DNA from: Climacium dendroides
Lineage: Eukaryota; Streptophyta; Bryopsida; Hypnales; Climaciaceae
Direction of reading: 5' to 3'
DNA length: 64,000 nt
Assembly: GCA_950106755.1 (NCBI GenBank)
Contig: OX467088.1
Location: forward strand, 31,396,401 to 31,460,400
The notes beneath the pieces are model-generated. The model did not search any database. It saw nothing but the letters and a program-made list of their open reading frames with translations, and had not been told where the DNA came from. Positions 47,582-64,000 of this stretch are shown here, in pieces; position 1 is the first letter of the stretch; the number at the start of each line of letters is the position of its first letter. Position numbers and translations under genes: made by a program.

Positions 47582-49620
47582 TGTGGGAGTATGATCCCAC
47601 ATGCTAGACCCAAAACACTAGCATTTGACGGGAAATTTCAAAATTTATTCCCTTAAAAAGGATAGTTTTTGAGTTCTCATAGAAATTTAGAAAAATTCAG
47701 GAATACCGGATATTTGGATCCGGAATAATTCCATTAGGTATAAAAACCTAATTTGGAAGCCCTAGAAAGGTCTGGAAATCGGATGACGGCGTCGGCCCTA
47801 AAAGCCGGAAATCGGATCCGTACTAGGGTTAGGTTTTTGCCGCCAAAACCTATCCCGTACTCTCGTCCGACCGTCCATCTGTCTGGCCAGTATAAGAAGA
47901 GGACTGTAGCCGGTGGAAGGCACGATTGCCTTCTTACTTTTTTACATTTGCATTTTCCGCCTTTTTAGCTCTTAGAAATTTCCAGTACACTAAGGGACTG
48001 TGTGAGTTGCGATCGTATAGGGGGTTTCAGAATGATTCTTTGTGAGCAAGAGGGGTAGGGAGAAATTGTGCAAGGTTTCTTGTAAGCGTGATGTCTTCTA
48101 GGGCGAGCCGGTGTAAGCTGAGGGAGGAGCCAGAGGACTCAAACGATGCAATGCCAACACCACCGCCCCGGCCAAAGGCAATTCCGGTAATGCGGGTGGT
48201 GCCGAAAATTCCAACCGATGAGGTCCGGCTGGAGCGCCTATGACAGAACCTCACCAACATGGGGTGTGAGGGTTTGATGGATGTCCCTTGGGGCATTCGT
48301 GAGGAGAGTTTGGTGGCAGATTTGCTTCGTCCGGAAAGTGGTATCTTGGATACCACCCTTCGGGCGAAGCCGAAATTATGGACAGTCAATGAGTAGAGAG
48401 CTGTCTACGGGTCCGGATGGCGTTGGATAAGGTTATGGAAAAGAATCAAGAGTGCATGGAGGGCAAGTTTTGGGCGCTGGCAAACCCGATGGATGGTCAC
48501 CAGGTTTCAGACCTAGTGAAGCCGGAATATCGGGATGTGGTAGCGTTTCTCAACCCTATCCTTCACCCGACCAAGCCAAGGCGAGTGGTGGCCAAGGTGG
48601 CTTACACCATCCTAGGGAGTCTTCAAGGGAAGCTGATGATGGATTGGGCCTTCGTCATCTATGAATTGGTAGGGGACCTTGTGCGTTCCTTCCAGCAGGG
48701 AAAGAAGGGTGGGAGCCCTCTTCCAGCTTATGTCTCCCACCTGTATTCCCACCACTCCCTACTCAAGACGAACAAGGAGGACACTTATCAAGAGTTGGTT
48801 CAGCTCCAAAAGTACGGAGGAGAAGAATCTTCTCCCCGGGAAAGACCAAATGACGAGGAGACGGAGGATGAAGAGGCGCCCACTCCTCTGGTGAAGAAGC
48901 CCCGGTGGCAGGTGACTCCACCGGCAAGGCCAACAAAGGATCCTCCCACACCAGAGCCACAGGAGGAGGGAGCTCCGGACCGGAAAGAAGAAGCTGGACT
49001 TTTTCCGCAAGAGACCGGATCTGCTCAACCGGAAGTTGGTACTGCTCAGACCGAGGTCGGACCCTCCCGGACCAGACTTACGGAGGCAGAGGAGGAAGAG
49101 AGGACCGAGCTTCGACTAGGGGGGTCGCCCTTTGAGGACATTTCGGAACTGGCCCAGCACATCAAGTATCGGACAGAAGACATCATGAAGGTTCTCTAAA
49201 ACTATGAGGAGACTCTCAAGCGGGTGTGCTGGAAGATGGCACTAGCCGACCGGAACGCCATCTTTTGGAGGACGGACGCGTTGGTGGCGGTGGAGAAACA
49301 AAACGCCCTCCTGATAGAGGAGCAAAAGAAGTTGGTGACGGAGGCGGGCATTTTACGAGTGAAAAAACGGACTTTGTTGGAACGAGCTCAGGAGTCGGAG
49401 TCCAATTGTGTCAGGTTGGAGAGTGAGTTGCTAACAGCCCAAGAGATGGCCAAAGTTGTGGGGGAAGAGCACCGCCGGCAGATAGAGGCACTGTGTCGGG
49501 GTGTGACCCGACTCCGAAGTTCCTTGGATATTCCGACGGACTACATCAACAAGGCCCGGTTGTTCGAGGCCAATTTCAACGTAGCCGCCAGCTCGAGCCG
49601 GGTGCCCATTGTCAAGTGTT
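47582..49620 (+). mobile_element. LTR family A copy A3, 3'-truncated
   Basis: It starts TGTGGGAGTATGATCCCACA at 47582, directly after the D3 ORF text CAACCGAAGGA. It includes a TATAAGAAGAGG promoter word (47890) and the ORF from 48091. Around 49620 the reading IVKCLL leaves the family and meets inverted copy A4. Confidence 0.7.
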
Positions 49621-49661: not shown

Positions 49662-51699
49662 GTTTGGGGTCACACTTACTACGCAGGCTATACCGGCATC
49701 CGAGCAGTACTACACTAACACTACTGCCGGAACCATCCAGTTGATCTCCCCATCAAGTTAGTACATCCAGAAACCGCTCACGAAATCGACTCTTGCTACT
49801 CAAGGTAAGTTTTTAGTCTCCGGAAAAGCAAGAATGGACCCACACCTCCCACAAACATGTACCGCACACAAAAAGATAAGAGAATGGATATTCCAAACAC
49901 TTGCAATTAAGCTCAAAAAGGTACAATGCTGGAACTATGGGATGGCTGCGAATGACCAGAAAGGCCATCAAAACTCTTACTTATACTAAGACCAACATCA
50001 TCCTAAAAATCCTACAAAACATTCCTACTGGCCCGCTAGATTTCCAGTAAATCCCAGATCCTATTTTTTCGGCTTTGACGGCCGGACTCCGGTATTGCCG
50101 CTACACTACATTACTGCACACTATTTCTTGGAATCCGGATCCTTGGGAAGAACATAGTCCTTCAGCAAATCCAGCTTCACCTCCTTCCGGCCACTCTCTG
50201 GAAGAAACAGCTTTGGACCCCTTTGTCCCCATCTTTGGACCTCCACGATATTGGGATCCTTGTCTACACTCCGGGTCCCGAATATCGGCACGTCTGGACT
50301 CCCCCGGGAATCCTTCTGGGTCTTCTTATGACGAGGAGAGGACTATATCGCCCGACCATTGTGAGCTTCCGGAGAAGTACCCGTCAGGTCAATGGTCGGG
50401 GTCACCGGAAGTAGATCTTCGCTTCCTTGGGGTACCACGGCTCCCCAGTCCACTCCTTTTGGCCTTCCGGATGGTAATGAAAGTTCCGGATTCACTGGTA
50501 CCACCGGCGATACTTCAGTAACCACGGGTTTCAGGTTATTGCCCTCCGGAACCACCAAAGTTTGCGCGGAGGGGGAAGACGGAGTTACCGGATCCGTCTC
50601 GGTGGAAGCCAAACACTCCATCATCTCCCGCATCTCTGCCCGAGATGCATCCATCTGTCTTGCTTGCTCCAATAAGCACTTGATGATGTGAACCCGACTC
50701 GAGCTGGCGGTTGTGTCGAGGTTGGCTTCAAATAGCCGAGCTTTATTAATATAATCCGCTAGTACTTCCAAAGAACTCTGGAGCCGAACTATACCTTAAC
50801 ATAATGCCGCTATCTACCGGCGGTGGTCCTCTTCTATGAGCCGGGCCGTTTCCTGGGCTGTGCAGAGAGTACTTTCTAATCCCACACACTTGGATTCTGA
50901 ATCCCAGACTTGGTCCCGCAACGTCCGGTTCTCCACGCGTAACGTTCCCAACTCTATCACCAACTTCTTTCGTTCTTCTATTAGGAGACCGTTTTGCTGC
51001 TCCGCCGCCACCAACGCATCCGTCCTCCAGAAGATGGCGTTCCTATCAATTAGTGCCATCTTCCGGCACACCCGTTTGAGAGCCCCCTCGTAATTCTCGT
51101 AGATCTTGGTGAGGTCATCCGCCCGCCATACCAGGTGCTGAGCCATCTCCTAGATGTCCTTTAATGGCGTCCCTCCCAGTTGCATGTGGGTCCTATCTCC
51201 CTCCTCTACCTCCATCATCCTGAACCAGGAGGGTCCAGCCTCGGCCTGAGTGACAACAGCTTATGGTTTCACTAGCCCAACCAATTGCATAGAAGGTCGG
51301 ACTTCTTCCGGGGCCGGTCCGGTCTCCGTCTTCTACTCCTGAACTTCTTCTTCTCGTGGCCCCGGTGCGGGAGGATCTTCTGGCGGATTCACCGGCGGCG
51401 TCTTAGTTCGCCGTCGCCTCTTCTTTAGAGGGGTGGTCGGCTCCTCGTCCTCCGTCTCTTCATCGTCCGGTCCGTCTCGAGGCGAGGGTTCTTCTCCCCC
51501 GTACTGTTGGAGCTGAACTAGCTCCTAGTAGGCGCTCTCCCAACGGTGCTAGATTGTGAGCATGTGAGCGTGAGCCTACGAGCGTTGAGCATGAAGTATG
51601 TGAACGTGGAGTTCTGGAATTGTAAAAAATTCAATAATATTTATAAAAATAGAATTTTCAAAAAAGGGATTCAAATAAATTCTATTTTCAGGATATTCG

Positions 51700-51762
51700 T
51701 ACCCTATTACCGTGGACCTTTTGCCGTGGACCTATTACCGTGGACCTATTACCGTGGTTATA
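51700..51762 (+). repeat. Short tandem repeat near the MULE left end
   Basis: CCGTGGACCTATTA-like 14-bp units occur four times (one variant CCTTTTG). They lie 160 bp inside the MULE left end; no counterpart is seen at the right end. Confidence 0.75.
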
Positions 51763-52011
51763 TACAATTTGTATACAATTTTGAGTTGCTATTACTGGTT
51801 AGAGTAATAGAAGTGCATGTTGCGAAAGGCAAACAAATGACCTACAAGAAAAAGTAAGTCGAGATTGAAAATAGGTTGTATTGAATACTTCAAGAAATTA
51901 CAGTATTCAAACATACAAATTGGTACTTCTAAAGCTATACATCTCACTTTAGTGTATAGTCCTTCAATCATTAATACCAATCACCTAGGGATTCTTGGAC
52001 TTCTAAACATG

Positions 52012-55000
52012 TTAAAGACTCTCCCTTGAAACTTTGATGATGTTGGCCTTTGTGAGAAGGAGCTTCACTTCATTGAAGCTAAAGCTTGGAGAATGTATAA
52101 ACTTATCCTCTGCCGGATTCATTTTGCTGAAGTAGCGAAGTAAGTAATAAAGATGTTTGCAATGCACTACCTGCTGGCATCCACCAATTGCTGAAATGGC
52201 CATGTCGACAAAATCAGGACAAGTGCACTCTGGATACATGCCAAGTGTAATGCGATAAAGCTTTTGCTGAGGTTCAAGTCCGGATTGAAGGGAGATTATG
52301 GCTCCAAGTCCAGGGAAGGGGAGCAAGGTTATTCCTATAATTGTTCCCTTGACATTACTAGCACTCTCCCATTTATTGCGGTGCTCTGTTGTAGGAGCAT
52401 TTGCAATATGGCGAATAGCTTTGCTCCTTCGAGTAGTTGGATATGTGTCAGCATGCAAAGGACTAGGATGATCATAGTAGATGGCTTGGAATACATTGGA
52501 CATGGTGAATAAACGTCGAGGAGACATAGATGGTCGTTGTTGTAGCTGAAAACCAGCCTCTTGCAACAACAATGTTTCTTGGCGAGTCAAATTTGTGCCT
52601 ATTAGTACAAGCCACACATCCGGAACTTGGGGCCAATCAATTACCCAAACTCGTTTGGAGCCTCAGACACATCGTTCAATATCATTTGGGCAAAACCAGA
52701 AGTCAGTCATGATCTCTTTGTTTCCGCCGTACTGTTTTTTTCTACCACGGTAGGTCGAAGCTGGAGTACCTCTAGATCCCTTTGCAATTTTGGCAACACA
52801 GCGGATGTTTGAATTCCGTTGTTGCGCGTGACATTTGCAACTGGACTTGTGTGAGATTCTTGCGATATGCCACTATAAAGTATCACAGTCAGTTTCCATT
52901 GCAAATGTCACATGTGGTACATGCGTAGAATCAACCAACGTGTCTGCTTCATTAGAAGCAACCGTGGGTGAACATGTTGATCGTGTTTGTACTCGAGGCT
53001 GAGAGAAGTTGACCTTGTCTGGACGATGAGAGTCACCATCTGACCCAATGGGGAGGTCAAGCTTTCGCTTACTGCTACCAAATACTTCTTCGCCTTCCAA
53101 ATGGGGAATACATGATGCAACACCAACCCCTCCAGGAAGGTCGTTCAGCGCCTCCGCAATCTTCTTAGGATCCCCGCTACGTCTAGCGCCTCGTAACTTT
53201 AACTCCTCTTTAGATGGCCCTGACCTTGATATGTTGCCTTTCAGAAAAGCTCGATAATTGGTCATTTGCATGAAAGCTCGAATGCAGTCATCAGAAGTTG
53301 CGGCAAACAAATCATTATCCCGATTACCCGATTGCTGCAACCATCTATTATGGATTGTTTCGGATAAGTTGCATGATGGCATGTCTGCCATCTCCTCAAC
53401 ATTTAATTCCTGAAATAACAATATCAATAACAAATCAAATCCAAAATTATGTATCATCAGAGTTTTGAGTTACAATGAAATACTTAAACTTTGATCTCTC
53501 TACTATACGGGCAAGGCTCCTCTCGGCGCCGAGGGGAGAATCCCCGATACTCTAGAGTGATCAATATTTTCAAAGAAGGTAGCAATATTTGCTCCAAGCT
53601 TTGTTTCAGTAAAATAAAAGTGGATCTAAAAGATTGCAAAATAAGAAAGATAAGGTAGGAAAATTACCATTTGCATGAACTTGTCCCATTGACGATATCG
53701 AAAGTGCCAAAATGCAAGCCACAACTCGAGTTCCTTCATAGCATCTTCCGAGGCTGCTCCAGATGAAAGCCACCAAGATCGTATCGCTAGGTAACGTGTC
53801 TCAGCTTCGTCCATACTTTTGGAGTCTTTGTATTGCTTACAAAGTTGAGTATGTTGGTGTTGCAAGTCCGGCTTGATGAGCTTCTGTGTATGGCGATGCA
53901 AAGAGGTACTCCAATGTAAAAGACATGTCCGCTCTCGGTTCACCATCTTTGTTTTGGGATCTCCTGATCCATAGACAATTCAAATGGCATTCCAATTCGC
54001 TTGTGCGCTATCAGCCATAAAGCCTTTAAAATTCGGATTCTCAATGCCATTGCGTCTCATGACTCCGTTCAAAGATCTCCACATGATGCATTGAACCTCA
54101 GTGTCCTCAAATTGCATATCACACACAGCTATTGTCATCACTTTCTGGCATCCTGTATCGTAAACATGGCAAGCCATGGTTGTCCAGTCTTTAACCCGCT
54201 TGACATGGTCAAACATGAGCCATGCGTTCTCCAGATCTCCACCCGGTTGCATCCGTTTGACAAAGTCCACACCACTCCCTGGCCCTTCTACAAGCATCTT
54301 AAAACAAGTAAACCTTCTCTTTGCCTTAACCAGAAAACACACTATCATGGATGTACTCAAACCTCAAATTCCTTTTCATATTCATGATACTATCTATTAT
54401 CCCACTTTTGCCACTTGAACGGAAAGACGAAATAACATTTCGGATATTAGGAGAACTTAGTATCTGGAACTTGTCCATTACATCATCTAACGAATTCCCT
54501 TGCAACATCTGCTTTGGACCTTCACCGTTGTGTATCAAGTGGCTATCAAGAAATTGCTTGCTAGCTGCTAGGGCAATGGCAGAGTTAGTGGTACTAGGGG
54601 TTTTGAAAACCTCGCCAGTAATGAGTTCGGACACAACACCTAAAGATTCTCTACATGTTCCGGAAGCGACCGGATGCACATGATTCCCCAAATGAATGCA
54701 AGCTCTTGTCATGCTTGCAGAATCACCAACAACGTAATAGATTCGAGCATCACAGACATTGATGCAATGAGGCGGACATTTGCATATCTTACAAAGGAGG
54801 GTAGAATCCTTTGGAGGAATGGCACCAATACGAAATGGTCCAGGAGTGAAACCACACCACTCAGTCTCATTTGGCTGAGAAGAACGCTTCAAGTAGTTGC
54901 ATTCTGAATTCTTACAAATAAGATGGCCTGCACAACAAGATTTTCTAAACTTCAAGCCATCGTAATTGTTGATGTTAGATGTCATTGTCCTACACCAAGC

Positions 55001-55852
55001 GTGTCCACCATAATGTTTATCCATGCCCTATAACTTCCCAGCAATAGATGATGAAGTCGGCATCGAAAGAGAAGGCAACTCAAAAACTACATCTCCGTCA
55101 AAATTAGCAGGAAGGTACTGAACCTTGTGATGGATAAGTGCATCATAGTCTAATGATGCTACTTCATTTCGAGAACCACGTATAGACGCTAGCTTACGTA
55201 GGCAACCCACAATACTAATTGCGAATGCACAACCGGGATATGTTGGTGGACGCGAGTACGTGGACAAAGCAGGACTACTAGAAGGCATTAGCTTTGTCGT
55301 AGACAATGTGTTGAGGGCATCGTCAGAGACTGTACTAGGAAATATTGGCTGGTTCGGAGACTCTCCTTCGGACTCACTCGACAGATCTATAACAAGGTCA
55401 TTGGGTTCTTGCTTTACAGTGAATAAAGGAAAAGGAGTGACAATATTTGTGACATGCTCACTTTTAGAAGTGTTTCGGTTGTCACGATGGGAAGGAGGCA
55501 TGTCCACTATAGAATGTTCGGAATGCCAATGTAAGATCTCAGTGGAGTCTACCCTCATAACAAATGGTAAACCGTAAGCTCGATAGCGCTCTTCCCGAAG
55601 ATGCCAGAAATGATTGTCATCAACTACCATTCTCTGCATATGGATTGACTCTCTTAAAGTTCCGGACTCAGAGAATACCTCCTCTTCAACATAGATACTA
55701 GACATGACAAATCCAAAACGTACATGAAGAAGGTGAGTAGAAACCATAATAAAATCCTGATCTCCAAAAGGAAGAAAGAGAGGAACCTCATGGCCATCCG
55801 CTCGAAGGGAGGCCATGTTCCCAAAATCGAATCCCACTATTGACAAGAACAA
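52012..55852 (-). pseudogene. MURA-type MULE transposase, broken
   Basis: Two large exons (55852-53668; 53409-52012) with a GT-AG intron. The N-terminal part has unknown function (MFLSIVGFDFGNMASLRADG). Around 55020-54760 a Cys/His-rich region with HYGGHAWCRT, CCAGHLICKNSECNYL and CKICKCPPHCINVCDA looks like a WRKY-GCM1/FLYWCH-type DNA-binding zinc fold. Residues near 54300-53990 match a MULE catalytic core (VCDMQFEDTEVQ, then FMADSAQANWNAI with the second acidic residue). The C-terminal SWIM finger is CTC...C-K-H in YPECTCPDF and VVHCKHLYYLL (near 52170). Breaks: TAG 55028, TAA 54326 with a one-base shift just after, TGA 53980, TAG 52873, TGA 52663. Decayed, but the layout is clear. Confidence 0.8.
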
Positions 55853-56524
55853 TATGACCTAAACTATTTCAATGATCAAGTACGTTTGAACTGAGCACCC
55901 TTCCTAAGCGTACTGCATGGCCATATGAATGAGATTAAAATGGATTTGACAATCCAGGATTTACAACGTTAGCATCTACAACTAATATTCATTAATATAA
56001 TAACGACCCGTATATAATATATTTTAAAGAGTTACTGATATAGATGGTTGCGCTTGGAATTAAGGAAATGCACTCAACTGTCCATTGAATGAAAGTAACA
56101 CGAACGCCAAATGAATTGAACTTTATTAAGCTTAATAGTTAGATTGTGGCACAATAACAACATGAAAATATGTAGATCTTCTTTGTACACGAGTTTCGAA
56201 CATTATAAAAATTGGACCATTAGTTCATCAAATCGAATAGAGTAGAATATGCAGATTTAGCTTCAATTACCAACAGTAACCAATATTCTAATAACTAAAT
56301 TATGGACACAAGCCTGTAAAAGAGGGTACTTGTGTGATGTTGGATTTCATAAATCAAATTAGAAAATCGTGAAGTATTTCCAAAAACAATTATTGGGGTT
56401 CAAATGTTGAGTACGGTGAAATCATGAATTGATTAGAGGAATTTGAATTTGAATAGTTCTGACGCTTTGAGAATGAAAGTAGTCCCAATAATATGATTGG
56501 TTACCCTAAATCCTGAACGCAGGG
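55853..56524. promoter_or_regulatory. Divergent intergenic region of the MULE
   Basis: AT-rich DNA between the two head-to-head genes, with CATTATAAAAATTGG near 56203. It probably holds both promoters; no coding reading or defined element is seen. Confidence 0.35.
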
Positions 56525-59500
56525 ATGGTTCGATCCAACTACACTACCCTATTTCTCATTGATAATTATCACTACATACAATGGTCGTATGTATGTAGTG
56601 TTAGTCATATGCTTACACCAGATATCACGAGCGATGGAATTCAGCATGGTTCTAAGAAAAGGAGGAAGAGAGGAAGAACATTTTTTTCTTCTAGGAAAGA
56701 GTTGCAGAGGTCAAGAAATAGAAGTAAGAAGGTTGTATCATTGACTGAGTCCCAGCCACGTGAACAAACTCAAAGTGCTCTAATGCATGTAGACGACTTC
56801 AATATAGATCTCATTTCAAAGAGTGAGCATATTGTAAGTGTCCTTGAAGAAGAGCCACCAAGGTGTAGCATTGGCCAAGAGAGATTGCATCATTCGGTAA
56901 GTAAATATACTTGGTATTCGCAGTTCCTTTTCCCTTTGCAATATTGTATCTTGGAAGTACCATTAGGATATCCAAAAATGAATCAGTTGATGACCATACA
57001 AACTCGAGAAAGTCCCCATTACAACTAGGGGTCCACGTTATTTTGTATGTCTTTGTGACAGGGCTCATTCCTTACTCTCTACACATTTCCATTGCGCTTC
57101 TTCTAACCTAGAAAGCGGACATGGCGAAGAAACGGAAAACTAAGAGCACAGCCGCGGAGGCGTAGAGAAGCAAAGAACACGATGAGAATAACAACGATCA
57201 GGAAGAAGTGACCCATTCCATGAAGTCGACGGAAGGACCAACAACTCAGAGCTCAGAGGTATTCAAACTTTGCATTCCTGTCAATCCTTGTTTCTCTCAA
57301 AAAAATTAAGAAGGTTTAGAGTTCTAGGTCGCTCCATTTCTTTCCTGTCTGCCTGTTTCTGCATTAGGACTCCCCCGCCCCGGCCTTGCCTTCGGCGCCG
57401 AGGGGAAAGGGGGAGCGCTATTGTGTTGATGTTTTTCCGTCAAAGGTGAGCTCCGGGGCCCCTGCTTCGTCCGCGGGGTCACCCTCATTTCTTTCTTGTC
57501 TGCTTATTTCTGCATTAGGACTCCCCCGCCCCGGCCTTGCCTTCGGCGCCGAGGGGAAGGGGGGAGCGCTATTGTGTTGATGTTTTTCCATCAAAGGTGA
57601 GCTCCGGGGCCCCTGCTTCGTCCGCGGGGTCACCCTGTTTTCTTTCCTGTCTACTTGTTTCTACATCAGGACTCCCTCGCCCAGCCTTGCCTTCGGCACC
57701 GAGGGGAAGGGGGGAGCGCTATTGTGTTGATGTTTTTCCATCAAAGGTGAGCTCCGGGGCCCCTGCTTCGTCCGCGGGGTCACCCTCGTTTCTTTCCTGT
57801 CTGCTTATTTCTGCATTAGGACTCCCCCGCCCCGGCCTTGCCTTCGGCACCAAGGGGAAGGGGGGAGCGCTATTGTGTTGATGTTTTTCCATCAAAGGTG
57901 AGCTCCGGGGCCCCTGCTTCGTCCGCGGGGTCACCCTGTTTTCTTTCTTGTTTGCTTGTTTCTGCATCAGGACTCCCCCGCCCCGACCTTGCCTTCGGCG
58001 CCGAGGGGAAGGGGGGAGCGCTATTGTGTTGATGTTTTTCCGTCGAAGGTGAGCTCCGGGGCCCCTGCTTCGTCCGCGGGGTCACCCTATTTTCTTTCCT
58101 GTCTGCTTGTTTTTGCATTAGGACTCCCCCGCCCCGGCCTTGCCTTCGGCGCCAAGGGGAAGGGGGGAGCGCTATTGTGTTGATGTGCTAGGTCACCCAG
58201 TGAGCTGGGGGACCCCGGGATATATTGTTCATTCATTGTTCATGTACTTCATGAGTGACTCACTTCTTCGACTTGTTTCTTACTAATGACATTATTGGAT
58301 GGCTTGTATGACTTCGATTCAGGTGGAAGTAGGTTCACCAATTCAAGTTTTGGAGAATACAATGGAGCTTGTTACCATTGCTGATGTTGACGTTGAGGTT
58401 GAGAATATTCACCAAGACGAAGGAAAAGATGAAGAAAAATTCCAAACCAAGGACGCCTATAGGAGGTCTTAGAAGGTGAACTCTGTAGCCTCCATTGCCG
58501 AATTACGCCTAAAACCTACCTCTATATCTCGAATTCGGATTCCATTGTGTCGCCTTGTCCAAATGCCCATGGTTAGACCCGCACTTCAAAGCGATCTTAC
58601 CAAATTGGAGTAGGAGTTCGTTCATGGGTACAGAGATGGATCGAATGTTTTTTATGTGTCCCTGACTAATGAGCAAGGGGAGACTGAGATGGTGTCTGAT
58701 GCGGAAAGAGAGGCTTGGGGGCCGATGTGGAATGAAGAGAACGACAAATTCAATGCAATGTTGTCTTCCACCCCAGGCCTCCAAAACTTTCAAGGGTCTA
58801 AGTTCTTCGTTTGCGACGGCAACCACAGACTTCTGGCATGGACCTCTTACATCAGCAAACACCACAACCGTGACCGGGATTGGCATATTTCGGTGGATTC
58901 CATCATTCTTGACACTAAGGGGAGGATTGGTGATGTCATGCATGCTATGCATGACATTAATAAGTGAGTGTTCCTTTGCAAGTAGTTCATCATTTTGTCT
59001 TTTCTATGTGATCGTGTAGGAAGAAATTGATGTGTTTTTGCCTCCGTTTCAGGCATACAGAAAGCTCGTTCATCAAGACCAGTCTTATTCATACGCTATA
59101 CCGTGTTCAAAAATATGGCATGCTACCACTTGAGAAGTTCTCTAAGCATTTAAATGAGACTGAGATGACTCAATGCCAACAAAATCTGCGTAAGAGTTGG
59201 TACTCAATGTCGGTTGAAGTGTTTACTTCATTCATCTATCGAGTAACGATTCTCTCAAATCATGTGCATATTTTTTCTATAGTAGAGGTGTTTAGAAATA
59301 TCAATGCTTTCAATGGTTTCCTCACTTCCATGTGGTTTTGCAGTATGAGATAGCAGCGGCCGCTGACCTAGCAGTTAGGTTGTATAGGGAAGAGACACCT
59401 ATGGACCTACAATCAGAGGAGGGTGTCTTGGATGCCATGAGGTTAGGTACGAAAGAGAAGACAGCTAAGTTAGTTCAAAAATTGGGGAAATTGACTGCCG

Positions 59501-62500
59501 TTGCCAATCCCAACCTGGGAATTGAGTGGCTTCAAGAGGTATGATAACATCCCTTTAGACTTTACCTTTTTTTATTCTTCTGATCTCATTTTGTTCACTT
59601 AACTAGATGTGATTTGTGGTGTCAGATTGAGCGTCACTGGAGCTCAAACATCACTCCAGAGATGACTCTAGAAAAGTTGCAGTCCATGGCAACTTGCAAT
59701 GTTAGCAAGGAGCATAAGGTAAAGTGGCTCAGATGGTGGAACTCATCAGTTCAGACAAGGGAGGCAAGAAGGTTTCCATTAAAGCCAGTTGGAGAGATAG
59801 AACTGAAGTCTTTCCTAGTGAAGGCATGTTGGTATGCTGGAGTAAGTGTTTTTCTTTCATTTCTATCATGTTTCATTCATCTCATTTCTTGGTTGTCATC
59901 TGTTCCGTTGTGACATTTGGCCATTTTTGTAATTTGGAGTGCAAAGTATTTTGTAGAATACCACTTCACTTTTAATGGCCTTGCAGATACAAGACACGGG
60001 AGCTGAAATGTTTGATAACATTGTGAAGAAAGACCAACTCAAGTTGGCTTTGGACTCTCCCATGGAGCCCGACAGTTTTCCAGATTATGTTGAAGATTGG
60101 AGAATTCGAGTTTGGGACCATGCTTTCTTGCCCCACTTCAGGGGACATGATGTCTTCAGGGGACATGATGTCTTCAGGAAGTCAGATGACTTCAAGAAAC
60201 ACAAAGGCTCTGACCTAGTTGTCAAACGGGTGATCTATCGGTAAACATCTGATATCTGAATGCCATCCTGATATGCTTGAGTATGTTTTCTGATTGCGGC
60301 TGTTGAATCAGTTTCTATATTTTGAAGTAATTGTTCCTTACAGGTATTTCAAGTATGAGTTGTTACCCAAGGGGGCAATTGCGAAGCGCGACCTTCCTCC
60401 ATTTTTAGGAACATGGTTGGATGTCAATTCAGAGCATTGCATGTACTCGGCGTCACAATTGAGATGGTGGACGAGCTTACATTTGAAATCCGGTGCGTGG
60501 TACTTGGACTGCCCGCCGGAATTCACGTCGTTGCCTGAGGAGCATCTAAAGCGGTCAATCAATACCCAAAACGTGGTCGAGGACTTTGATGAGTTTGTTG
60601 GCCTTGATGAGGATGCAAAGGCAAAGGCAATCAAAAAGACAGATGACGTAGACAAGAAGATTGCACTCAAGAACTTCGAGGCGGTGGACAAGGCAAAGGA
60701 GAGAGCCACGAAGAAGACAAAGAAGGTTGTTGAGTCCGATCGGGTACCAACGGCGGAGAAGGAGAAGGGGAAGAGGCCCCAAAAGGATGTCTTACCTTCA
60801 TCTTGCAATGACGCAGCTTCCCAGCACCAACGCACAAATTCACGTGGCACTAAGTGTAATGCTGAGTATGCTTCACTCAGCAATGATGAGATGCAGCATG
60901 GTCCATCCGTTGTGGAGTACTTGCCGGATTCAGAGATTTCTATTCACGAGTTGCTTCTGAATTACTCTCTTACGGATGTCCTGGCCAATCCTCTTCCCAA
61001 AGTATACCACGACATTGTCAATTTTGTTGACAAGGTTGGCATTTTCATTTTCATCCATTTGTTGAGTATGTTGGGGTTTTTCAAACATGCCTGGTTTGGT
61101 TCCTAATCAATTGAATGATTTTGCAACACAAAGGAGAGAAGGTGCGCTTCTTCCGTGGTGCTCCAAGCAATAAACCCCGAGTAGACCTTGTGATTGCGGA
61201 CATGCCTGAGGGGTTGCCTATCCCAGGTCTATCAGTACCTACAAATAGTGTTCCGAAATGGAACACAGCCGACCCTTCTTGGCTGGAGGCGGTCTTTGAG
61301 TTTGCTGATGGTCATTTGCACGATGATGGTGCATTACTTATTATTCATTCTCGGAGTCCTCTCGCAAAGGCTACAATTTTGAAGTACGCTGCAACATATT
61401 CGTTTCAGAAGATGAAGGATTGGTGGGGAACCAATTGGCTTCACCTAGCCTCACCGATCTCTACTGGAAGTACGGTATGTACATCCTTCATTGTTCCTTG
61501 TTTTATTCATGTACTCATCCTTTGTTGACGTGCATACTTTCATTCTTCAATTTTCCATCTTCTATTTCAAGTAGTGATTTTTTGGGTAACTTTTCTTTGG
61601 ATTGTCTTAATTGATTACATCTGTGCTTCAATGGGTTTGTTATGGCAACTAATAGTTTAGATTTGTTCATTCAATTTGGACTTATTCACTTGGCACCACT
61701 TCACTTCTGCAGACACAGTTCTTCCGTGTCATGTTGCTGGTCCGGAACTTGGATGGTATTGGTCCTTCCAAGTTTCAATTCCAGCCATGCCCCAAGCTGA
61801 AGGAGCTAGGAATAGACGTGGCAGTTGATGATGTTATTCAGAATTTCACGAAGAGAGAGACGTTGACCATGGATAGCAATTTCAAACCTTGGAGGGGTGC
61901 AAGAGAAAAGGATCCCCGTTTCATGCAGATGTTGATAGAAGCATCAACATTTGCCAACGACGTTGTTATTGATTGCACTGCAGCGACAGATATTTGCTCA
62001 ATGCCATTTACTGTCTTTTATTGTTTAGCGACAGGTATTTGCTCAATGCCATTTACTGTCTTTTATTGTTTAGATTGATTATTATTTGTTCTTCTATTCT
62101 TATTGAGTGCTGTTGTAATTTGTTTTGTTCTGTTTGGGGATTAGGGGCTTCCATCCACGCTTGCAGGATTTTGAGCAGACACATCATTGCACTTGAAGAA
62201 GACAAGGGCATTTTTGAGGCTATTTTGGCCCCAATGATTCGCGTGGAGAGAGATGTTCCACCGTCACTTGCACCTGTCATACAAGATTCTGACGATGATG
62301 GAGCTCAAGAACTTGAAGTTCCCCACATCGTGAAGAAGTCTCATTTCAGTAAGTAAGTCTACCCCTGCTTGTTTTTTCTACATTTTCTACAAATAGCTGT
62401 ATACTATTCGATCACTTTAATTTGACTTTATCCTACAAGTTTCTTTCTTCATGAACATGATCTTTTTATCATTCCTAATAATCATTTTCTCATTTGCAGC

Positions 62501-62770
62501 ATAACTTGCAATCCACTTGCTCCCCGGCCATTTTTCACTCTATCCTCTTTTTTATCAAGCCCAAAGAAGTCCTTTGTGTTGCCATCGTATGCAGAGGCTC
62601 TAGCTGGGACATTGGCCTGTCAAGAGGATTTTTGTAGACAGAGAAAGTCTAAATTTGTAGACCCTAGAATTCTACAATTTGTAGATGAGATAGCTGTAGA
62701 ATCAAAGGAGGAGACCTCATCCATTGAGAGTAGTGACCACTCTCAGTCTATGTCTTTATCATCTATGTGA
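56525..62770 (+). CDS. ParB-like / permuted amino-DNA-methyltransferase-like gene in the MULE, multi-exon
   Basis: About twelve exons with GT-AG junctions. Examples: 56525-56896 (donor GGTAAGTAA); 57110-57258; 58332-58964; 59052-59211; 59343-59538; 59625-59839; 59987-60240; 60344-61035; about 61133-61474; 61714-61992; 62145-62353; 62500-62770 (stop TGA). Domains: basic N-terminal region (KKRRKRGRTF); a ParB/sulfiredoxin-type motif FVCDGNHRLLAW near 58813; a central region; then a methyltransferase-like fold in permuted order. That fold has VDLVIADMPEG at the motif IV position (61181), W-FE-A-GHLHDDGALLIIH, WWGTNWLHL, then VVIDCTAATGASIHACRIL at the motif I position, interrupted by the last intron, and RHIIALEED. 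Motif IV reads ADMP instead of [DNS]PP[YFW], so activity is doubtful. In-frame TAG at 57163, 58470 and 58611. Exon edges are by eye. Confidence 0.65.
57368..58200 (+). repeat. Six-fold 151-bp tandem array of exon-like units
   Basis: Each unit has a pyrimidine tract (TTTCTTTCCTGTCTGC), TGCATTAG or CATCAG, a 78-nt exon-like block, and AAG followed by GTGAGCTCCGGGG. Exon-like blocks: 57368-57445, 57519-57596, 57670-57746 (77 nt, one base lost), 57820-57897, 57971-58048 and 58122-about 58190 (donor changed). The 78-nt block has no stop in one frame (DSPAPALPSAPRGKGERYC, then VDVFPSK). It lies between the 57110 and 58332 exons of the methyltransferase gene. Confidence 0.8.
60141..60176 (+). repeat. 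18-bp in-frame tandem duplication in a methyltransferase exon
   Basis: GGGGACATGATGTCTTCA occurs twice back to back, giving FRGHDVFRGHDVFRK. Six codons are gained without breaking the frame. Confidence 0.9.
61983..62072 (+). repeat. 45-bp duplication spanning a splice donor
   Basis: GCGACAGATATTTGCTCAAT starts the first copy (61983) and GCGACAGGTATTTGCTCAAT the second (62028). The first copy's donor is changed (AGAT), the second keeps AGGT. Either use keeps the frame into GASIHACRIL, with or without 15 extra codons inside the motif I region. Confidence 0.85.
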
Positions 62771-63359
62771 CTCTGTTTCTAGTTACTTTTCACATGTTGA
62801 TTTTTATTCTATTGTTTATTGTACGTTGTTTTGTGTATTTCAATTAGGATTACCTACAAAATCCAGATCAAGAATGAATGCTTAGAGGTAGAACTTCATA
62901 ATCGTGGAAAGTACCTTCATACCCTAAACGCTAATTCAAATCTTTTGTTGAACCCTAAACTACATTTTCATACCCTAAACCCTATATTTCAATATGTAGC
63001 CAAACATCATGAACATTATATTTGAAGGGATGAAATTCACATCACTAATTCCAAAAATAAATAACCGTATTTCACTACAATCGTGAACTATGGACCAAAT
63101 ATCTTTTCAATCCTAAAAACCCTAACATAGTATCAATAAAATTTGCAATGAATTTCATTGAAATTGGATTGCGTTACCCTACAATCAAAACATATATATC
63201 ACATTTTATTTTTTTCCATCATACATCGTTAGGTGTAGTCCTCTTTCCAATTTCCACAGTCATAGGTACCTCATCAAACCCTAGACAAAAAAGTTGTATG
63301 CTCACACGCTCACAGGCTCACACATTCCTGCTCACAGGCTCACAGAATAGCAACCCTGG
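62771..63359 (+). other. MULE 3' flank after the methyltransferase gene
   Basis: AT-rich DNA without coding signals, including three AACCCTAAAC-like words (62930-62990). It ends in GCTCACA-type subterminal repeats (63300-63345) and the right terminal inverted repeat. Confidence 0.5.
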
Positions 63360-64000
63360 GTGCTCTCCTCGTTTGCCTTAAGCAGGGAGTGATGAGCATA
63401 TAGATGGGACAAATACACCGGAAGGGGACTCTGACCCTTATTCCCCGACCGGAGGGAATGCACCAGGTCCCCAATTAACTCATGGATGATGGTTGCCCAA
63501 TCCATCATCATTTTACCCTGGAGGCTCCCCAAGATGGCGGAGGCCACCTTTGCTACCACTCGCCGCGGCTTGGTTTGGATGGAGAATAGAATTAAGAAAT
63601 GCTATCACATCCCGGTACTCCGGATTCACCAGGTTGGAAACCTGGTGACATTCCTTCAGATTGGCGGGTGCCCGGAAGTTGCCTTCCATCACCTCCTGAT
63701 TCTTCTCCATGACCTTATCCGGCGCCTCCCGAAACTTGTAGACGGCCCTCCATGTGTTAACTGTCCATAGTTCTGGTTTCGCCCAAAGGATGGTATTCAA
63801 GATACCACTTTCCGGACGAAGTATGTCAGACACCAGACTCTCCTCCCGGATGCCCCACGGAACCTCTAGGAGCCCATCACACCCCATGTTGTTGAGGTTC
63901 TCCCGCAGACGCACCAATCGGTCCTCCTCGGTAGGAACCTCTGGAACCACCTTCATCACCGGAATGGCCCTCGGTTGGGGCGCCAGTGGCGGCATCTCGT

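Follow-up and report, generated by a model that had tools for sequence, protein, structure and literature searches.

A Mutator-like transposon family in Climacium dendroides that carries a ParB-methyltransferase-like gene

Architecture of the element and its insertion site

We analysed a window of 64,000 nucleotides from Climacium dendroides (C37:31396401-31460400 of a 412.6-Mb genome, G000), which holds a complete DNA transposon with two genes: a transposase gene and, divergent from it and head to head, a second gene whose predicted product joins a ParB-like domain to a DNA methyltransferase-like part. An earlier reading of the window made from its letters alone (the sequence-only reading) had described this pair, and both genes are indeed present, though both are broken in the window copy. 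The features are listed below with positions in the window.

51531-51540, no strand: left copy of the target site duplication (TSD), GGCGCTCTCC, 10 bp, by flank comparison
51541-63358, no strand: complete element, 11,818 bp; left end common to other loci, right end from the terminal inverted repeat (TIR) and TSD
51541-51569, plus strand: left TIR, 29 bp, with TGTGAGC words; 22/29 ungapped against the right end
52012-55816, minus strand: transposase gene, hand-modelled exons 55816-54341, 54297-53668 and 53409-52012, from open reading frame translations, relatives and the fold of a relative
52012-52662, minus strand: C-terminal part of the transposase, SWIM-type CxC...CxH, by motif match only
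57121-62772, plus strand: ParB-methyltransferase gene, 11 hand-modelled exons, 1142 codons, from translations and splice modelling
57335-58187, plus strand: 151-bp tandem repeats in intron 1 of the second gene, by repeat analysis
58323-58963, plus strand: exon 2, ParB-like domain with DGNHR, from 107 relatives of the subfamily-B exon and the fold of a relative
61127-61474, plus strand: exon 8, methyltransferase motif IV region, D-M-P-E, by comparison of copies
61713-62352, plus strand: exons 9-10, methyltransferase motif I region, from PF01555, a DpnA alignment and PHROGs
63330-63358, minus strand: right TIR, 29 bp, pairing with the left end
63359-63368, no strand: right TSD copy, GGTGCTCTCC, 10 bp

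The ends had been proposed at 51541 and 63359. The left one stands, as 28 of the 29 other loci fetched begin at the same base (L066 begins one base later) and their flanks are unlike by eye. The right end lies one base earlier, at 63358, where the TIRs match at 22 of 29 ungapped positions, as against 6 of 29 with 63359; among 20,000 random window pairs the best match was 21. The duplication, reported as 9 bp, is 10 bp with one mismatch (GGCGCTCTCC/GGTGCTCTCC). The idea of a single 11.8-kb insertion that interrupts a host reading holds up: excision of the insert with one duplicate joins two gag-like parts in one frame, and the joined reading resembles, as judged by eye, a second gag copy. The joined reading also has internal stops and, elsewhere, a change of frame, which marks the host gag as decayed in its own right. 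The two related gag-like readings, of long terminal repeat (LTR) retrotransposon type, lie at 48417-49199 and 51000-51540/63369-63998, with the element inserted within the latter. An Rfam scan of the window at gathering thresholds gave no match.

Copies of the family in the genome

A genome search scored the left end at 40 places (of 120 candidates) and the right end at 40 places (of 191 candidates; 42 match rows), the window being among them in both cases. Thirty left-end loci were fetched, including L044, which is the window copy itself. When left and right ends on the same strand and within 40 kb were paired, 31 of the 40 left ends, window included, found a partner, and the ends named in the sequence-only reading do therefore pair in other copies; nine have no partner among the scored right ends. 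The spans range from 10.9 to 34.5 kb, with 21 below 13 kb, and the ten longer ones were treated as elements carrying other inserts; six of these ten show a 9- or 10-bp TSD.

Among the 20 other copies with both flanks, the TSD is 10 bp in 15 and 9 bp in 3, and none was found in 2 (L054, L066), with at most one mismatch allowed in 10 bp and one end of the pair L050/L077 placed by eye (the script alone gives 14/3/3). A transposase match lies inside 31/31 paired elements. The second gene likewise lies inside 31/31, found by exon search in 24 and by 301-bp probes at 90-94% protein identity in 7 (the best 40 of 3275 candidates were scored, two positions are approximate when intersected with the pairs, and in a nested case among the longer spans either gene could be that of an inner copy). 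A transposase also stands beside each of the 41 second-gene loci inspected (the 40 scored and one subfamily-B locus). The check that had been proposed for the element, that other copies should share both ends, matching duplications and the second gene, thus came out in its favour, with a 9-10 bp TSD in 18 of 20.

Another copy (C37:31494550-31506411) lies in inverted orientation at a distance of ~35 kb from the window copy, and its second gene is among the closest to that of the window among the matches listed; perhaps this reflects local transposition. Several family ends are clustered within ~130 kb at C37:30282790-30416433.

The transposase and its superfamily

Mutator-like elements (MULEs) encode a DDE transposase with an RNase H fold and a zinc finger, often of SWIM type, and TIRs are absent in some groups. 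The transposase modelled here has 1167 codons in three exons, and the window copy carries four in-frame stops (TAG 55028-55030, TGA 53980-53982, TAG 52873-52875 and TGA 52663-52665). Exon 2 has 488 relatives. The predicted fold of a relative is nearest to ISCth4 in both Foldseek and VIA, at a Foldseek TM-score of 0.30; HIV reverse transcriptase takes up the Foldseek rows that follow ISCth4, and in the VIA list integrase cores and Hermes stand at only slightly lower Z. The SWIM motif and TIRs are present, and the TSD lengths of the family fall in the range of 8-11 bp given for MULEs (PMC6446971).

Pfam MULE profiles, in turn, matched neither the window pieces, nor the spliced protein, nor 68 transposase relatives, despite 41 PF10551 (MULE) matches elsewhere in the same genome. 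An element of another or unnamed DDE superfamily, MULE-like only in duplication length and fold, would fit this Pfam result and the closeness of integrase cores and Hermes in the VIA list; with the 9-10 bp TSDs, the SWIM motif and ISCth4 as best fold match against it, we regard such an origin as somewhat unlikely. The MURA-type label of the sequence-only reading is supported by predicted fold, SWIM motif, TSD length and TIRs, and not by Pfam. The modelled fold points to a putative DDE transposase of IS256/Mutator-like type, and we call the transposase Mutator-like with no formal MULE membership.

By eye, the 41 PF10551 places and the 150 transposase matches do not overlap. More distant transposase relatives, at 73-78%, form a large class with many long open frames and near-equal scores, and this class may have been active most recently.

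The second gene

The second gene of the window copy is damaged by three in-frame TAG codons and two broken splice sites, and broken second genes also occur among the other copies read. An altered genetic code for the stops was considered and rejected: both TAG and TGA occur in frame, subfamily-B copies have no stop at either TAG site of exon 2, and C-to-T changes dominate.

The ParB assignment is based on motif and predicted fold. GNHR is found in 100 of 107 relatives of the ParB exon and DGNHR in 99, and the predicted structure of a relative has a ParB-CTPase fold, with Foldseek TM-scores of 0.28-0.35 for ParB rows. The Pfam ParB profile did not match the window ParB exon, which gave only DERM, weak and unrelated; among the 107 relatives Pfam found DUF1015 in 5 and CB_ParB_C in 2, all weak, and a sequence search of the PDB with the ParB profile gave chance rows only.

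The methyltransferase part matches PF01555 at E 7.5e-6 (26.5 bits against a cut-off of 26.7). It has the beta-class order, with motif IV ahead of motif I, and a DpnA alignment and PHROG matches fall in the C-terminal part. A search with the full-length protein returned nothing at E 0.001, whereas single-exon queries worked. A pattern scan of viral contigs for the protein found none, and when the L041 methyltransferase part was compared with phage records by tblastn, 59 records matched, all at less than 80% coverage (best E 1e-4).

In beta-class amino-methyltransferases the canonical catalytic motif IV is [DNS]PP[YFW], and its aromatic residue grips the flipped base. In the present family, 29 of 34 copies have D-M-P-E as motif IV and 0 of 34 have [DNS]PP[YFW], across two subfamilies that are 62% alike in this region. 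Because of this substitution, ordinary amino-methylation by the second protein is doubtful on motif grounds. An active ParB-guided amino-methyltransferase, whose N6-methyladenine or N4-methylcytosine would mark or protect the element as suggested for algal proteins, would fit the beta-class motif order, the PF01555, DpnA and PHROG matches and the constraint on the methyltransferase exons, and such activity is proposed for an Ectocarpus protein (PMC12477816); against the motif IV data, we consider it unlikely.

Two repeats were seen in the gene. Intron 1 holds about six 151-bp tandem units, and their number may account for some of the variation in copy length. A 45-bp tandem duplication at 61982-62071 spans the end of exon 9, and most other copies aligned have one unit fewer.

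Older relatives, linkage and selection

An older subfamily (B), with a second gene ~64% identical, has both genes together at five loci. Four of its second genes (C34:3886421, C3:3873641, C3:3948320 and C35:33026727) are 59-61% alike in exon 7, and 5' of each lies a transposase in opposite direction that is 85-86% alike in exon 2. C3:3873641 and C3:3948320 score identically and seem to be a single stretch present in duplicate, so that one of the five loci repeats another. The fifth transposase (C39:28272104) was chosen blind to its neighbours, and a second gene was found alongside.

For the second gene, comparison of the window copy with L041, L042 and L043 gives a ratio of nonsynonymous to synonymous substitution rates (dN/dS) of 0.116-0.128 across the exons read (exon 8 alone not calculable), a rough value as dS is ~2, near saturation. 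Because the second gene is in 31/31 pairs, is kept in subfamily B and has a dN/dS of ~0.12, it is an integral part of the element lineage, under purifying selection, and not a passenger. A useless captured passenger, comparable to the gene pieces in Pack-MULEs, would fit the broken genes of the window and other copies, and is highly improbable for an 11-exon gene with this retention, this dN/dS in the older subfamily and a transposase beside 41/41 loci.

Cytosine methylation decay of the copies

Over ~3 kb, 29 copies, window included, diverge by 0.8-2.3% from their majority, and C to T or G to A makes up 73% of the changes. The change rate per site and copy is 0.046 in CG, 0.052 in CHG and 0.010 in CHH contexts, as against 0.003 for other changes. 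Decay in CG and CHG is the mark of plant-type cytosine methylation, and by itself would point to a land plant or a near relative as the probable host. This suggests that the element copies were methylated and silenced, regardless of the action of the second gene. Given so strong a decay, the second gene did not shield the copies from cytosine methylation over the long term. The window copy is fairly young yet decayed, with both genes broken. The proposal that the element marks its own DNA by methylation is weakened by this decay together with the D-M-P-E motif IV.

A model for the two-gene element

On balance we lean slightly towards a two-gene DNA transposon in which a Mutator-like DDE transposase is accompanied by a ParB/methyltransferase-like helper that would not carry out ordinary base methylation. 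The ends, TSDs and copy number are observed, and the DDE transposase would cut and paste the element, leaving the 9-10 bp duplications. The second protein, ParB-like in fold at its N-terminus and resembling beta-class amino-methyltransferases towards its C-terminus, would be a sequence-specific DNA-binding helper. Its ParB fold may load onto the DNA of the element, for which the TGTGAGC words repeated in the ends are plausible sites. The part that resembles a methyltransferase, with its D-M-P-E, may contribute DNA or cofactor binding and not ordinary base methylation. By analogy with VANC in VANDAL elements, the helper could promote transposition or act in trans against silencing by the host. 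VANC itself is not known to us to have a ParB or methyltransferase fold. Because of motif IV, we rank a part in helping or in anti-silencing, with no ordinary methylation, above active marking.

In a more specific version, which we put forward tentatively, a ParB-methyltransferase was long retained while the motif for methylation disappeared or was remodelled, giving a ParB-loaded DNA clamp, either a pseudo-methyltransferase or an enzyme of changed chemistry, that would mark DNA for the transposase or shield it from CG/CHG silencing.

Several observations weigh against the two-gene helper model. The Foldseek TM-scores are low for both the ParB rows and ISCth4, the PF01555 match is weak, 0.2 bits below its cut-off, and the Pfam MULE profiles are unmatched. 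The dN/dS is rough for the reason given above. At C1:1149354, a class-C transposase (77% alike, one locus only), a search of 6 kb showed no second gene, and a transposase alone may suffice in such relatives. The CG/CHG decay means that any anti-silencing effect is transient at best.

As the selection on it shows, the second gene is important to the element. Should its product be a pseudo-methyltransferase, it would represent a novel means by which a eukaryotic transposon keeps hold of its own DNA.

Comparison with known systems

The main text of a MULE survey (PMC6446971) contains none of the words ParB, methylase and methyltransferase, and a plant review (PMC13317346) mentions neither ParB nor methyltransferase. 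In the literature searched, mostly as titles and opening lines of abstracts, in which absence is unproven, a ParB-methyltransferase of a transposon appeared only in PMC12477816.

Mobile elements with a DNA methyltransferase-type gene of their own include retrotransposons of dinoflagellates and charophytes, whose cytosine methyltransferases were shown to methylate CG (PMC5890265); unlike here, these are C5-cytosine enzymes carried by retrotransposons. The same domain combination occurs in phage ParB-N6/N4 methyltransferase fusions (PMC12704722), which are phage or prophage genes, whereas the present gene is eukaryotic, with 11 exons and a long middle part. Among Mutator-like elements, the VANDAL MULEs also have an accessory protein, the anti-silencing VANC (PMC10398659; PMC5735166), which recognises short motifs of its own family and directs hypomethylation of that family (PMC13317346). 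Hypomethylation is demonstrated for VANC and only supposed for the present element, whose many copies allow a direct test against VANC-like anti-silencing.

The closest counterpart is Sola1-1_Ec32 of Ectocarpus, a DNA transposon with an accessory protein of 1104 aa (Dinatale et al., 2025; PMC12477816), against 1142 codons here. The second gene matches the definition of this algal type, with ParB-like and methyltransferase domains (N6/N4 in the alga) in one protein on the strand opposite the transposase. Compared by description only, the two differ in that Sola1-1_Ec32 belongs to the Sola superfamily in a brown alga, and the present element is Mutator-like in a genome with plant-type CG/CHG decay. 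The same accessory-protein idea applies to ParB-methyltransferases in green and red algal transposons, according to the citing sentence (Iyer et al., 2011; Petroll et al., 2025; as cited in PMC12477816). The combination that had seemed unfamiliar to the sequence-only reading is thus, as an accessory-gene kind, already known from algal transposons, while a Mutator-like carrier with D-M-P-E is new within the literature searched. It extends ParB-methyltransferase accessory genes to a Mutator-like family with plant-type cytosine-methylation decay, dozens of copies and two subfamilies.
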